Assembly: GCF_003428625.2 (NCBI RefSeq)
Contig: NZ_QVQT02000003.1
Coordinates: 488,207 to 552,206, forward strand
Origin: Paracidobacterium acidisoli
Lineage (GTDB): Bacteria > Acidobacteriota > Terriglobia > Terriglobales > Acidobacteriaceae
Direction: 5' to 3'
Length of the DNA: 64,000 nucleotides
The notes under the pieces are model-generated. The model was not told the origin of the DNA, did not search any database, and saw nothing but the letters and a program-made list of their open reading frames with translations. Position 1 is the stretch's first letter; each line of letters opens with the position of its first letter. Position numbers and translations under genes: made by a program. Shown one piece after another: positions 7,253 to 11,223 of this stretch.

Positions 7253-7485
7253 GGGCGGCTCCATACATCCCGGCTCAGGGCTGGGAATATCGGCTCAGGA
7301 TGGGCGCCATGCTACGCGATTCGCGCGGCGGGGGAAAGACCGAATTCATGAAGATCGGGAGGGCGGCGTTCGTGAATATTTGATGGAGCCGGAAGGGAAG
7401 GCTGCGAGGGGAATTGCCGTGCGCGTCTTCTGCGGATAGTCTGCGATGTACGATCTTAGCGACGGGCGCGAGGGGGATGGCGGCG

Positions 7486-8310
7486 ATGGATTTTCAGAGC
7501 AGGCTGGGAAGACGGATTGCGGTTGCGATGATGGCGCTGCTGACGGCGGGCGCCGGCGCGGCGCATGCGCAGGAGTGGGCGAAGGCGCGGCTGGATAAAT
7601 CGCCGCGGCACCAGGAGTGGGTGAACATTCAGTACGGCAACCGGACGGTGCACGCGTATGTGGTGTATCCGGAGGTGAAGGGGAAGGCTCCGGCGGTTCT
7701 GCTGATTCATGAGATCTTCGGGTTGACCGACTGGGCGCGCGAGGCGGCGGATGAAGTAGCGGCGGCGGGGTATGTGGCGATCGAGCCGGATCTGCTGTCG
7801 GGGTTTGGTCCGAAGGGCGGAGGGACGAGCGACTTCCCGGACCAGGATGCGGCGGTGAAGGCGGTGTCGGGGCTTGATCCGGATGTGGTGACGGCGGACC
7901 TGAATGCGACGGCGGATTATGTGAAGAAGCTGCCGGCGGTGAACGGGAAGCTGGCGGTGGCGGGGTTCTGCTGGGGCGGCGGGCAGTCGTTCCGCTTTGC
8001 GACGAATCGGCATGACCTGAGCGCGGCGTTCGTGTTTTACGGGCCTCCCCCGAAGGATCTGAGCGCGATCACGGCTCCGGTGTACGGGTTCTACGCGGGG
8101 AACGATGCGCGGATCTCGGCGACGGTTCCGGATACGACGGCGGCGATGAAGGCGGCGGGGAAGAAGTACGATCCGGTGATTTATGACGGCGCGGGGCACG
8201 GCTTCATGCGGGCCGGGGAAGACCCGACACGGACGACGGGCAATGAGGCGAACGTGAAGGCCCGGGAGCAGGCGTGGGCAAAGTGGAAGACGCTGCTGGG
8301 CGGGCTGTAA
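7486..8310 (+). CDS. Exported dienelactone hydrolase family protein
   Basis: A 274-residue protein with a signal peptide (cleavage near AHAQ, residue 28) and a dienelactone-hydrolase-type alpha/beta domain. The oxyanion region HEIFGL, the nucleophile elbow GFCWGG with Cys162, and the GAGHGFM histidine are all present. Cysteine as nucleophile is the classic dienelactone hydrolase arrangement. Such enzymes open lactone rings in aromatic degradation, but many exported relatives have other, undefined ester substrates. GAGGGGG lies nine bases before the chosen ATG; the frame is open from 7414. Confidence 0.88.
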   Translation: MDFQSRLGRRIAVAMMALLTAGAGAAHAQEWAKARLDKSPRHQEWVNIQYGNRTVHAYVVYPEVKGKAPAVLLIHEIFGLTDWAREAADEVAAAGYVAIEPDLLSGFGPKGGGTSDFPDQDAAVKAVSGLDPDVVTADLNATADYVKKLPAVNGKLAVAGFCWGGGQSFRFATNRHDLSAAFVFYGPPPKDLSAITAPVYGFYAGNDARISATVPDTTAAMKAAGKKYDPVIYDGAGHGFMRAGEDPTRTTGNEANVKAREQAWAKWKTLLGGL

Positions 8311-8380: not shown

Positions 8381-8956
8381 CTAAAGTTGTTTATCGCCGA
8401 ACTTTTTGGATAGCCATTCAAATACGGCTTTTTGTTCATCTTGCCCAGCCCGCCGGATTTGTGACAGCAACCAGATAGTAGTTGGTTTTTCCCCGGTAAT
8501 ATTCTTCGCCCCCTGATTACAGGTCGAGCACAGAGCGCGGAGATTTGATAACTCGTCTTTGCCGCCGAGATTTTTGTCTTTGATATGCCCAATATGAAGG
8601 CGAACTTTGCGCCTGGTAAAAGGGTCAATATCACCGGGAGTCAGGCCGCACATCTGGCACGTGAAGCCATTGCGGTCAAGGACTTCAGCACGAAGCTTCG
8701 CAGAGATACCGCGACCGAACCTAACTTGTTTTTCCGGTGGGTTTTCGCTCAGGAGATATTCCCCTGGTTTTAAGTCGACACTGTCGTGATGAGTCAGGAT
8801 TTTCCAGCCCTCATCTTCCCTAAGTTCGCGGACACGCCTTGCCCACTCGCTGACACTGGAGCCAGCTGCGTCACGAAGCTGGATAGATGTAACTACCTTT
8901 CCGACATTAGCTGCAAGAAAGCGCCGGATTCTTTCTTTTGATCCCGGCTTACGCAT
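8381..8956 (-). CDS. HNH endonuclease, probable restriction enzyme
   Basis: A 191-residue protein with a helix-turn-helix-like N-terminal part (residues 5-50, SIQLRDAAGSSVSEWARRVREL) and a ββα-metal HNH nuclease domain. Zinc-type cysteines are C100xxC103 and C143xxC146. The metal/catalytic histidines are in HIGH (121 and 124), followed by the canonical GGKDELSNLRALC. It is the last gene of a four-gene minus-strand operon and overlaps the upstream cytosine methyltransferase by 8 bases. I infer it is the restriction half of a type II system. The specificity is unknown. The region is AT-richer than its surroundings. Confidence 0.8.
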   Translation of the reverse strand: MRKPGSKERIRRFLAANVGKVVTSIQLRDAAGSSVSEWARRVRELREDEGWKILTHHDSVDLKPGEYLLSENPPEKQVRFGRGISAKLRAEVLDRNGFTCQMCGLTPGDIDPFTRRKVRLHIGHIKDKNLGGKDELSNLRALCSTCNQGAKNITGEKPTTIWLLSQIRRAGQDEQKAVFEWLSKKFGDKQL

Positions 8957-9743
8957 GCCCTTCCATACTCACTAATTCAGATGTGTTGAGAGGCAGCTGA
9001 TGCAGCAGTTGTTTTCCTATCAGTTCTGTATATGCGGGTGGAATTGCTTCATTGATCTCGCTTTTGGTCATCCAGTCAATCCCCATAGCTTCGCTTGCGG
9101 CCGCAAGCGTGCAATTCCCTCCTCCGGTAACCTGTACAAAATCTTTCCACTCATCGGTCTTACCGTAATGCGATTTGCGTCTATCAAAAGTATGTACTTT
9201 CGGATGCTTTTGATGAGGAGGTGTCAGAATTGGAAACGATGCCTCAAAAAGACGATGACGTAATACTCTAAGTCTAGGGAACATCGTTCCACAAAGAACG
9301 ACAGGATTGATTAGCGGCGCACCTTCCACATTCTCGATTACATACGGCAGGTTTGACCTGATGAGCATTTCCCGCACAGGCTCAATGAGGCGCGGCCAAG
9401 CATGTGCATTCCCGTTTCTTTTGGCGAGGTCGCTATACGATTGACACGGCGGGGATGCATGAATCGCGTCGAACGATGCAATAAAGGTCGGGTCCAAGTT
9501 CAAAGCATCAGCCTGAATGAACTGAAATGGATAGCGAGGTTGTGGGCTTATATCGACACCCACGACATCAAAACCAGCTTTCTGATAACCTGCCCCCGCT
9601 CCGCCTGCACAGCAAAAAAGATCAAGAAGTCTCGGCCTTCTCCGGGCTTTTGAGGCTGAGCGACTAGGCCGGTATGAAGGAACTTTATTTTCCTGTGTGG
9701 GACAGCGTTCGGTCTTGTCATTTTCAATCTGCGAGAAATTCAT
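8949..9743 (-). CDS. DNA (cytosine-5) methyltransferase
   Basis: A compact 264-residue C5-methyltransferase. SAM-binding motif I is LLDLFCCAGGAGAGYQ (39-54). Motif IV is ASPPCQSYS with catalytic Cys100. Motif VI is ENVE (137-140), motif VIII is RHRLFE (162-167), and motif X is IPPAYTELIGKQLL. The interval between VIII and X is only about 70 residues, so the target-recognition region is minimal, as in phage-type enzymes. It should methylate the site cut by the HNH nuclease downstream. The first 20 bases overlap the end of vsr. Codon use and base composition differ from neighbouring genes, suggesting transfer. Confidence 0.9.
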   Translation of the reverse strand: MNFSQIENDKTERCPTQENKVPSYRPSRSASKARRRPRLLDLFCCAGGAGAGYQKAGFDVVGVDISPQPRYPFQFIQADALNLDPTFIASFDAIHASPPCQSYSDLAKRNGNAHAWPRLIEPVREMLIRSNLPYVIENVEGAPLINPVVLCGTMFPRLRVLRHRLFEASFPILTPPHQKHPKVHTFDRRKSHYGKTDEWKDFVQVTGGGNCTLAAASEAMGIDWMTKSEINEAIPPAYTELIGKQLLHQLPLNTSELVSMEGHA

Positions 9744-10134
9744 TCAGCCGCTCCATCAGCCTTGCAGGTTTTTTCAATTCGCATTGCCATACTGTAAGTA
9801 CTTTCCATCCCATCTTTCGCAGTTGATAGCGAACATGTCGATCCCGAGTTGCATTAGCGAGAAGCTTTGTTTGCCAGAAGTCGGTGCGTGTCTTCGGGAT
9901 CGTAGCGCGCTTACATCCAGTATGGCGATGCCAGAAGCATCCATGCACAAATAACGCTTTTTGGCGTGATGGAAAAACCAGATCGGGCTTGCCGGGCAAA
10001 TTTGGGTCGTGGAGTCGATATCGGTACCCAAGCGAGTGAACAATTTTTCGAACTGCCATTTCCGGGCCTGTATCCTCCGCGTGAATCGCCGCCATATTCA
10101 GGGAGCGGCGGTCAGAATTCAGGTGATCAGTCAC
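9724..10134 (-). CDS. vsr: Very short patch repair endonuclease (Vsr)
   Basis: A 136-residue nicking enzyme that cuts beside the T of T:G mismatches left by deamination of 5-methylcytosine. The Vsr signature is complete: AEDTGPEMAVRK with Glu25, LPGKPDLVFP with Asp51, and FVHGCFWHRH with His64, His69 and His71, in the same order and numbering as in E. coli Vsr. The C-terminal VWQCEL strand is also present. The frame is open to 10386, but the GTG at 10134 starts one base after the stop of the RHH gene and gives the normal family length. Its job is to protect the sites methylated by the adjacent enzyme. Confidence 0.88.
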   Translation of the reverse strand: MTDHLNSDRRSLNMAAIHAEDTGPEMAVRKIVHSLGYRYRLHDPNLPGKPDLVFPSRQKALFVHGCFWHRHTGCKRATIPKTRTDFWQTKLLANATRDRHVRYQLRKMGWKVLTVWQCELKKPARLMERLNEFLAD

Positions 10135-10135
10135 A

Positions 10136-10330
10136 CTAAAGCCTCGTATGGCCAAATAAAGGCCATTGATCTGCCACGTATTTCTCTGCGGCTTCCCGCA
10201 CAACCCACGCAAGAGATACTTTTTTACGCCGCGCAATTTCTTCAAGCGTTCGATAAACATCGGGTGGAAATCCAACCGAGGCGCGGATTGTAGACGGCTT
10301 GGCGGCTTTTGCGATCTGTTGGCCCGACAT
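10136..10330 (-). CDS. Ribbon-helix-helix (CopG-like) regulator of the RM operon
   Basis: A 64-residue basic protein of the shape ribbon (STIRASVGFPPDVYRTLEEIA) then helix (KVSLAWVVREAAEKYVADQ), typical of CopG/Arc-type DNA-binding proteins. The start is preceded by GAGGA with a nine-base gap. Its TAG stop is one base from the GTG start of vsr, so the genes are almost certainly co-transcribed. I infer an autoregulatory controller for the restriction-modification operon, in place of the more usual helix-turn-helix C protein. An antitoxin-like role is the alternative, but no toxin gene is next to it. Confidence 0.7.
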   Translation of the reverse strand: MSGQQIAKAAKPSTIRASVGFPPDVYRTLEEIARRKKVSLAWVVREAAEKYVADQWPLFGHTRL

Positions 10331-10358
10331 TTCTTAAAATCCTCATTGCCTAACTTTA

Positions 10359-10385
10359 TGCACCAGCTTACACCGCTACGGTGCA
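10359..10385 (-). promoter_or_regulatory. Candidate operator upstream of the RM operon
   Basis: Two nested inverted repeats lie 29-55 bases before the RHH start: TGCACC (10359-10364) with GGTGCA (10380-10385), and CACCG CTA CGGTG (10371-10383). The position fits autoregulation by the RHH protein. No clean -35/-10 pair could be assigned. Confidence 0.35.
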
Positions 10386-10446
10386 AACGGGGAGACGGAA
10401 ATTTAATCCAAGATGTAAACGCAGGTTACGGAAAGCAGCGGAATCG

Positions 10447-10475
10447 TTGACTCGGGTGGGGAATTGCCGTATTCT
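10447..10475 (+). promoter_or_regulatory. Consensus-like promoter for rplM-rpsI
   Basis: TTGACT (10447-10452), a 17-base spacer and TATTCT (10470-10475) form a strong housekeeping-type promoter, about 310 bases upstream of rplM. Confidence 0.7.
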
Positions 10476-10788
10476 GAAGTCCTTGCGCAGTCTGCGTCTG
10501 CCGTTCTGTGCGTTCGTGCATAGAGATACGGGCAGGCGAATCCGGAAAACCTGAGAGAAGCCGGTTCCGGGGAAGTTGCGCCAGCCTCACGCGAACAGCA
10601 TTCTGTAAGCCGCGGGGTACTTTGCAGGACCGCGCGTGGCTGCGCGTGGATCATTCGCGGTGTTTACCGGACGATGACAAGCCGGCCGCGCGATGAGAAA
10701 ACAGGGTTTTGGCCGCGGCGGAGGCAACTCCGGAGATGCGCGGCGCGGGCCGAATGGCCCGGAAATGGTTCGGGAGAAGGAAGAAGCG
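10476..10788 (+). other. Long untranslated leader of rplM
   Basis: The predicted transcript has roughly 300 bases before rplM with no convincing gene. It contains GCCGCGC (about 10683) able to pair with GCGCGGC (about 10738), and a GC-rich hairpin CGGGCC GAAT GGCCCG (10746-10761) just ahead of the ribosome-binding region. It may be an autoregulatory leader, as ribosomal operons often have; this is inference only. Confidence 0.4.
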
Positions 10789-11223
10789 ATGTCGACATAT
10801 ATTCCGAGCGCGCTCGAGATTCAGCGGAAGTGGTTCGTGGTCGATGCCAGCGGCAAGACGCTGGGACGGCTGGCGACCGAGGCGGCCAGCGTGCTGGCCG
10901 GAAAGCGGAATCCGAAGTACACGCCGTTTATCGATGTGGGTGATCACGTGATCGTGATCAATGCAGAAAAAGTACGGCTGACGGGGCTGAAGAGCCAGAG
11001 CAAGGTCTACCGCCGCTATACGGGTTTCCCGGGGGGACTGCGCGAGGAGTCGTTTACGCGGCTGCTGGAGCGGAAGCCGGAAAAGATTGTGGAAGAGGCG
11101 ATCAAGGGCATGCTGCCGAAGACGAAGATGGGCCGGAAGATGGGCTCGAAGCTGAACGTCTACAAGGGCGATAAGCATCCGCATGCTGCGCAGCAGCCTC
11201 AGCCGCTCGAAATCAGCGCATAG
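10789..11223 (+). CDS. rplM: 50S ribosomal protein L13
   Basis: A 144-residue L13, the usual length. Characteristic segments are [33 protein letters not shown], and the C-terminal [10 protein letters not shown]...[12 protein letters not shown]13 is an early-assembly protein of the large subunit. The ATG at 10789 follows GAAGGAAGAAGCG; an in-frame extension from 10693 is not L13-like. rpsI follows after 23 bases, the near-universal rplM-rpsI pairing. Confidence 0.97.

Follow-up and report, generated by a model that had tools for sequence, protein, structure and literature searches.

A four-gene restriction-modification (RM) operon was analysed in a 64,000-nucleotide stretch of the Paracidobacterium acidisoli genome (contig NZ_QVQT02000003.1, positions 488,207 to 552,206, hereafter the window). 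The operon is probably headed by a small ribbon-helix-helix (RHH) autorepressor, and the RHH gene together with its operator would form an interchangeable cassette that heads immune operons of many unrelated kinds. The gene (10136..10330, minus strand) encodes 64 amino acids, and upstream of it lies a 27-bp candidate operator, TGCACC-N5-GGTGTA-N4-GGTGCA (10359..10385, minus strand), that agrees with the family consensus at 18 of 18 positions. Since the RHH protein and the same site are found before dozens of unrelated immune operons, the pair looks like a reusable control switch. This reading is drawn from gene order, protein families, the operator, its association with immune genes and the covariation of protein and operator, all of them read from sequence.

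RHH-headed immune operons

The window protein belongs to the RHH_1/CopG superfamily (PF01402, 26.2 bits vs a cut-off of 20.5). Its relatives were sought with the single protein at E<=1e-8 in 398 genomes of one family, with plasmids and viral contigs serving as an outside check. In these family genomes 47 matches were obtained in 44 genomes, the host included. Two of the matches fall at a single locus, so that 46 loci are represented, each taken with some 5-6 kb of sequence to either side unless a contig ended sooner. Further relatives were found in 44 plasmid records, 35 of them from Xanthomonas, and at nine viral-contig loci, and none was found in phage records. A profile search of the phylum with an RHH alignment gave matches in 9 of 396 genomes, with only 15 candidates scored in many genomes, and the single-protein search was preferred.

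An immune-gene homologue lies within 1.5 kb downstream of the RHH gene at 41 of the 46 loci, a count that includes self-matches as the query genes were drawn from the same loci, vs 2 of 40 upstream. When other RHH_1 genes were taken as a control, such a neighbour was seen at none of 30 loci. The five loci with no downstream immune match are L166, L237, L248, L254 and L257, the last of which breaks off within the RHH gene. The next frame has a start codon that precedes the end of the RHH stop codon by 1, 4, 8 or 11 bases at 31 of 61 loci.

The first large open reading frame (ORF) after the RHH gene was scanned with Pfam at 33 of the 45 family loci outside the window; a later ORF was scanned instead at L164, L233, L237, L238, L247 and L251, and the scan left out L166, L223, L228, L234, L243, L245, L246, L248, L249, L252, L256 and L257. 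A methyltransferase or restriction nuclease (C5, N6_N4, HsdM, MT-A70, Eco57I, D12 or Mrr) was recognised at 24 of the 33 loci, a SNF2-type helicase at three, and an Argonaute, a TIR and an AAA_21/SMC protein at one each; two gave ambiguous families (L251, with NOV_C alone, and L254, with AAA_30) and one gave no family (L237). PADLOC, run on ten proteins picked from the less clear loci, identified HmaA at L241 (2032 bits) and HKD with Snf2 at L250. It also placed a class II prokaryotic Argonaute (pAgo) with Aga_Helical-REase at L232 and a PNTD-type protein with class I pAgo at L255. Both of these prokaryotic Argonaute operons, L232 and L255 (TIR/PNTD-type with class I pAgo), are headed by the RHH gene and the operator.

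Ten of the 44 plasmid records, chosen for spread over organisms, were opened, and in all ten an annotated methyltransferase gene directly follows the RHH gene. In plasmids of Xanthomonas phaseoli and X. campestris it is an Eco57I-type methyltransferase with a BsuBI/PstI nuclease, in those of X. hyacinthi and Methylomonas a C5 methyltransferase, in those of Mesorhizobium, X. citri, Ancylobacter and Neorhizobium paired N-6 or Eco57I-type methylases, and in those of Sinorhizobium and Rhizobium a C5 methyltransferase with Vsr.

The candidate operator

The operator was derived by comparing the upstream regions of the first loci and was tested on loci outside this derivation set. It consists of three GGTGYA half-sites, one inverted and two direct, and the N5/N4 arrangement was the best of 42 spacings (mean score 15.0 vs at most 12.5). 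Within the derivation set 18 of 21 loci reach a score of 13. Of the loci outside it, 33 of the 35 from family genomes and 7 of the 9 from viral contigs score at least 13 of 18, vs 0.9% and 1.3% of shuffles. The window copy has no mismatches and is the sole match in the window at up to three mismatches, where 0.01 would be expected by chance, and its core has one match in the whole host genome. This candidate operator was absent from the initial annotation of the island.

Positions 16-21 of the operator resemble a -10 element, since across 58 loci they read T (45), A (58), A (43), mixed, G (47) and T (53). In the window the putative -10 is TAAGCT (10365..10370, minus strand; family consensus TAANGT), and a putative ribosome-binding site of the RHH gene, GAGGA, was read from the sequence at 10340..10344 on the minus strand. 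The flanks of the operator are unconserved, except that a weak TTG precedes TAANGT by 17 bp and that a stretch rich in purines lies downstream. As flank conservation is limited to these two elements, the operator would cover the promoter spacer and the -10.

Searching by the operator core first gave 46 hits in 44 of the 398 genomes, with 26 at loci of this RHH family, and the reversed pattern gave none among the matches listed. A looser pattern gave 26 hits in 61 relatives, many of them in unrelated coding sequence, and its reversed form gave five. In viral contigs the strict operator matched one stretch, on the contig of L220, which was already in the set.

The same core is also used by a second RHH family with a VRRSVTLP-like strand (L186, L187, L191, L196, L290, L293, L302, L305, L306 and L307), whose operator spacer is often TATACT or TATAAT. 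At L186, L191 and L196 the RHH gene of this second family is followed by a gene for an 81-residue protein starting [MV]PQIE, and the two possibly form an uncharacterised toxin-antitoxin-like pair.

Covariation of the RHH strand with the operator

The 58 operator loci fall into a GGTGCA class (30 loci), a GGTGAA class (26) and two mixed cases. At the last position of the R-x-S-[V/I] motif of the RHH strand, GGTGCA-class proteins carry Val in 25 cases, Ile in four and Ala in one, vs Ile in 26 of 26 and Val in none for the GGTGAA class. This column scores by far the highest (z 30.7), followed by a C-terminal column (z 11.8) and then three strand columns. The covariation of Val or Ile with the outer base of the operator fits a direct contact between the two. 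In a tree built from the helices only, the operator class changes seven times, and supported branches force one change.

The restriction-modification enzymes

The three genes behind the RHH gene are predicted to encode an ordinary type II RM set in which a methyltransferase with intact motifs stands beside a nuclease. The initial annotation had read four compact minus-strand genes here, in the order RHH, Vsr, methyltransferase and HNH, and this layout was confirmed. The Vsr gene (9724..10134) has a GTG start one base past the RHH stop codon, Vsr and methyltransferase (8949..9743) overlap by 20 bases, and methyltransferase and HNH (8381..8956) overlap by 8 bases.

The Vsr mismatch endonuclease scores above the cut-off of TIGR00632 (140.8 vs 97.85 bits) and was compared with E. 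coli Vsr (1cw0, E 1.4e-28) in an alignment that contains the zinc positions and those which we take to be catalytic. The small phage-type C5 cytosine methyltransferase, 264 amino acids long, matches PF00145 (DNA_methylase, 36 bits vs a cut-off of 22) and phrog_363 (8.2e-44); its PCQ and ENV residues do not vary among 16 aligned sequences. The best match of its structural model (mean predicted local distance difference test score, pLDDT, 72.7) in PDB by E-value is M.HaeIII, with modest TM-scores (0.47 and 0.40). Members of this methyltransferase family were found in 298 phage records, mostly of Mycobacterium, Streptomyces, Paenibacillus and Arthrobacter phages, and may protect phage DNA against RM systems of this type. 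The predicted HNH restriction endonuclease (191 amino acids) matches PF01844 (36.4 bits vs a cut-off of 21.4) and has a helical/winged N-terminal part followed by the HNH; its model has a mean pLDDT of 81.0 and a predicted template modelling score of 0.43. The proposal that the HNH protein belongs to a restriction family held, its best PADLOC model being a type II restriction enzyme (REase_II, 2.2e-13).

A scan of genome contigs with an HNH alignment yielded at least 511 relatives, of which the best 80 were taken, and 17 from viral contigs brought the set to 97 loci. A few of the loci nearly duplicate one another (L095/L096, L097/L098), so that the counts do not represent independent events. 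The HNH gene stands directly behind a C5 methyltransferase gene at 84 of the 97 loci (classic 54, small phage-type 27, other C5 3), in agreement with the earlier description of the stretch as an RM island; the remaining 13 have no preceding methyltransferase, and some of these end at contig borders. It was also noted early that a vsr gene upstream of the methyltransferase is uncommon, and among the 28 HNH loci with a Vsr gene in the fetched stretch it lies downstream in 27 and upstream in one. Among RHH-headed operons the order RHH then Vsr was seen in the window, L215, L223 and L233, with Vsr recognised by eye in L215 and L233. The idea that the RHH protein is a constant part of HNH RM systems was rejected, as neither an RHH gene nor the operator core was found at any of the 97 loci (0/97 each); the RHH protein is therefore not needed for this RM type.

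In Pandoraea oxalativorans (L011, 3095-4453) a gene annotated as vsr (452 amino acids) also holds an HNH match, which suggests a Vsr-HNH fusion. The host genome has two further C5-methyltransferase genes (L005/C11 and L006/C13), in frames of 354 and 545 residues.

One HNH nuclease family is common to the classic and the small phage-type methyltransferases, and this implies one target served by both. A candidate for the target comes from locus L227, where an RHH gene is followed by genes for a C5 methyltransferase, an NgoMIV-family nuclease (PF09015 6e-119; 1fiu E 1.2e-111) and a Vsr recognised by sequence. NgoMIV recognises GCCGGC. Over its length the L227 methyltransferase shares 54-71% identity with 9 of 11 classic methyltransferases compared from HNH loci (28-30% with the other two), and the HNH proteins of three loci with classic methyltransferases (L030, L036 and L048) are 71-73% identical to the window HNH protein. 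The phage-type and classic methyltransferases share only about 21% identity. If this chain of identities holds, the HNH family and both methyltransferase types likely act on GCCGGC. Avoidance of GCCGGC was not found in the window, where 95 sites were seen vs 115 expected, within the range of other G+C palindromes. The NgoMIV system and the window are alike in that an RHH-headed NgoMIV operon exists (L227) with a methyltransferase related to those of HNH loci; they differ in that the window encodes an HNH nuclease together with a methyltransferase of the small phage type.

Genomic context of the island

The island lies between a dienelactone-hydrolase-like gene (7474..8310, plus strand) and rplM (10792..11223, plus strand); family matches and coordinates bear out this placement. 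It was further described as richer in AT than its flanks, and comparison with the window and both neighbours agrees with this. The RM stretch has a G+C content of 49.8% vs 63.9% for the whole window, G+C at third codon positions is 0.44-0.49 in the island genes vs 0.83 in the hydrolase gene and 0.78 in rplM, and the lowest-G+C 1950-bp windows of the 64 kb coincide with the island. Marks of an insertion were also sought at the island, and no terminator-like site, tRNA gene or direct repeat was found. A promoter-like site of rplM lies outside the island (10447..10475, plus strand; one found by consensus scan vs 2.5 in shuffles). The upstream region of rplM in one relative (G019) is 77% identical to window positions 10444-10508, and conservation on this side does not reach past the promoter region of that relative.

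The HNH gene was absent from about 1.5 kb beside rplM in 29 relatives (L122-L150, with L124 shortened by a contig end), and matches to the methyltransferase were found in only 4 of 61 genomes, that of the host (5.0 Mb, 15 contigs) included. As the genomes searched contained none other of the genus of the host, the rplM-side comparison is with distant relatives. Horizontal acquisition, as proposed in the initial annotation, is supported by the composition, the absence of HNH beside rplM and the sparse distribution of the methyltransferase; insertion beside rplM is supported by the composition and by absence in distant relatives only.

Proposed mechanism and alternative explanations

DNA binding, repression, a burst of expression on entry and the activities of the enzymes are what we infer from these findings. 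RHH dimers would bind the three GGTGYA half-sites over the -10 and block RNA polymerase, thereby keeping transcription of vsr, the methyltransferase gene and the HNH gene low. In a newly entered cell free of repressor the operon would be transcribed freely, in a burst, and the methyltransferase would be made before the nuclease, which is encoded last. Vsr would repair the T:G mismatches that arise from deaminated 5-methylcytosine, and the accumulated RHH protein would then shut expression down to a low level. The best reading is that this HNH RM set has acquired a mobile autorepressor-operator head, functionally like the C proteins and RptR and belonging to another protein family.

Several observations weigh against this reading. 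Three plasmid loci of the derivation set (L169, L177 and L178) score only 12, L235 and L253 have an RHH gene and a methyltransferase gene with no operator, and the viral loci L217 and L222 also have no operator. L166, L237 and L248 carry the RHH gene and the operator with no recognised immune gene, and, as described above, the RHH relative is absent from all 97 HNH loci. Of the operator-first hits, 20 of 46 lie away from this RHH family; eleven of these were inspected, and ten head the second RHH family, the eleventh being L294. The covariation may in part reflect shared descent, as the RHH protein is short and supported branches force one change only, and the second-ranked covarying column lies outside the strand. 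In addition the -35 of the window itself is poor, and we infer repression rather than activation because the operator overlies the -10.

This last point bears on an alternative that we consider unlikely, in which the RHH protein is a dual regulator in the manner of C proteins, activating at low level from the outer half-sites and repressing at high level, and so timing the nuclease. The poor -35 is in its favour, three half-sites of unequal quality would permit two-step filling, and C proteins are described in the accessible part of PMC12255303 as promoting transcription at low and repressing it at high concentration. However, the operator covers the spacer and the -10, a TTG is found at the -35 position across the family, and within the operon a consensus scan, which is a weak test, detected no promoter-like minus-strand site.

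Antitoxins are common among RHH proteins, and it might be argued that the one in the window belongs to a toxin-antitoxin pair that happens to adjoin RM genes. RHH regulators of toxin-antitoxin systems are known (mentioned in the available text of PMC3874152), and the second RHH family, with the same operator core, is followed by a small protein where this was seen. Yet the RHH gene is followed by vsr, and the proteins scanned at the other loci included no small toxin-like family, which makes this explanation very improbable. A toxin-antitoxin module was rejected as a description of the island, since the next gene is vsr and no toxin family was found among the four proteins. Less probable still is that the island is an ordinary RM island with the RHH gene as a passenger that came in with it, the pattern of neighbours being hitch-hiking in defence islands. 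Defence genes do cluster and any mobile gene may come to sit near them, but the RHH gene directly adjoins the operon in the same orientation, with the next start close to its stop at the 31 of 61 loci, the enrichment is on the downstream side only (41/46 vs 2/40), and the operator stands in front of the RHH gene.

An autorepressor cassette at the head of the operon is retained as the preferred explanation. Extending it, the RM, Argonaute and helicase defences may each have acquired the cassette, with the Val/Ile residue and the operator base sorting the operons into cross-regulating groups; this we regard as tentative. If true, a resident RHH protein would hold down incoming operons of the same operator class.

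Comparison with known systems

How bacterial immune operons are switched is poorly known, and the worked cases named in the literature covered are the C proteins, WYL proteins and RptR. C proteins are helix-turn-helix proteins. Like them, the window protein is a small regulator co-encoded with an RM set that would act on its own promoter; unlike C proteins, which can activate, it is an RHH protein that probably represses only. The initial annotation had placed an RHH protein where a helix-turn-helix C protein would be expected, and the matches to RHH families uphold this. Membership in the C-protein family was rejected, as searches of Pfam, NCBIfam, PADLOC and PHROGs at E<=0.01 gave no helix-turn-helix family. 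Proteins of the CopG/ORF56 type share the fold, and CopG itself regulates the copy number of plasmids; the nearest solved relatives by sequence are 6iya, 2k9i and 7etr (E 0.0006-0.002) and CopG itself (1b01, E 0.73), and sequence similarity to the window protein is marginal.

RptR, which represses a type I RM island, is among the closest known counterparts. In the accessible portion of PMC12255303 it is a small autorepressor whose gene stands first in an RM or defence operon, is conserved together with its site in many genomes, and acts on three repeated sites overlapping the -10; 54 of 117 RptR homologues stand beside type I RM genes. The same text describes RptR as an all-helical protein of 79 amino acids that binds TAGCTA palindromes and occurs in Gammaproteobacteria, whereas the family described here consists of RHH proteins with GGTGYA half-sites before many unrelated operon types in Acidobacteriota and on Pseudomonadota plasmids. 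A place for the window system in the RptR family was rejected, since TAGCTA, TAGATA, TATCTA and TATATA are all absent between the upstream flank of the operator and the RHH start, where GGTGYA is found instead.

The CapW/BrxR regulators, as far as the available text of PMC9122588 describes them, are likewise one regulator family common to several immune systems; they are ligand-binding WYL proteins with a winged helix-turn-helix, whereas the 64-residue RHH protein leaves no room for a sensor domain. In the sections available of PMC8708921, Reg of p576/pLS20-type conjugative plasmids is an RHH repressor under which genes are expressed transiently once a new cell is entered, but it controls plasmid establishment genes and not RM or immune operons. 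Elsewhere, RHH is mentioned once in the accessible text of PMC3874152, for toxin-antitoxin regulators, and is listed among the common domains of predicted E. coli defence proteins by DefensePredictor, with no control role described in the available part of PMC13092281; the parts seen of PMC12016545, PMC10853773, PMC9122588 and PMC3346939 have RHH proteins in other roles. In a term search, 'ribbon', 'CopG' and 'RHH' did not occur in the searchable text of a 2025 RM review (PMC12707154). In the literature covered, with subscription journals and bioRxiv mostly outside it, no RM or mixed immune operon under an RHH controller was found.

One repressor family with a readable operator before several types of RM system, Argonautes and DISARM/HmaA-like systems would offer a general handle on their control; the operator could be used as a search pattern for immune operons not yet described, and operons under shared control could be predicted by the Val/Ile rule. 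Devices of this kind are known from C proteins, RptR and CapW/BrxR, and it is this RHH family, its operator and its breadth that appear to be new.

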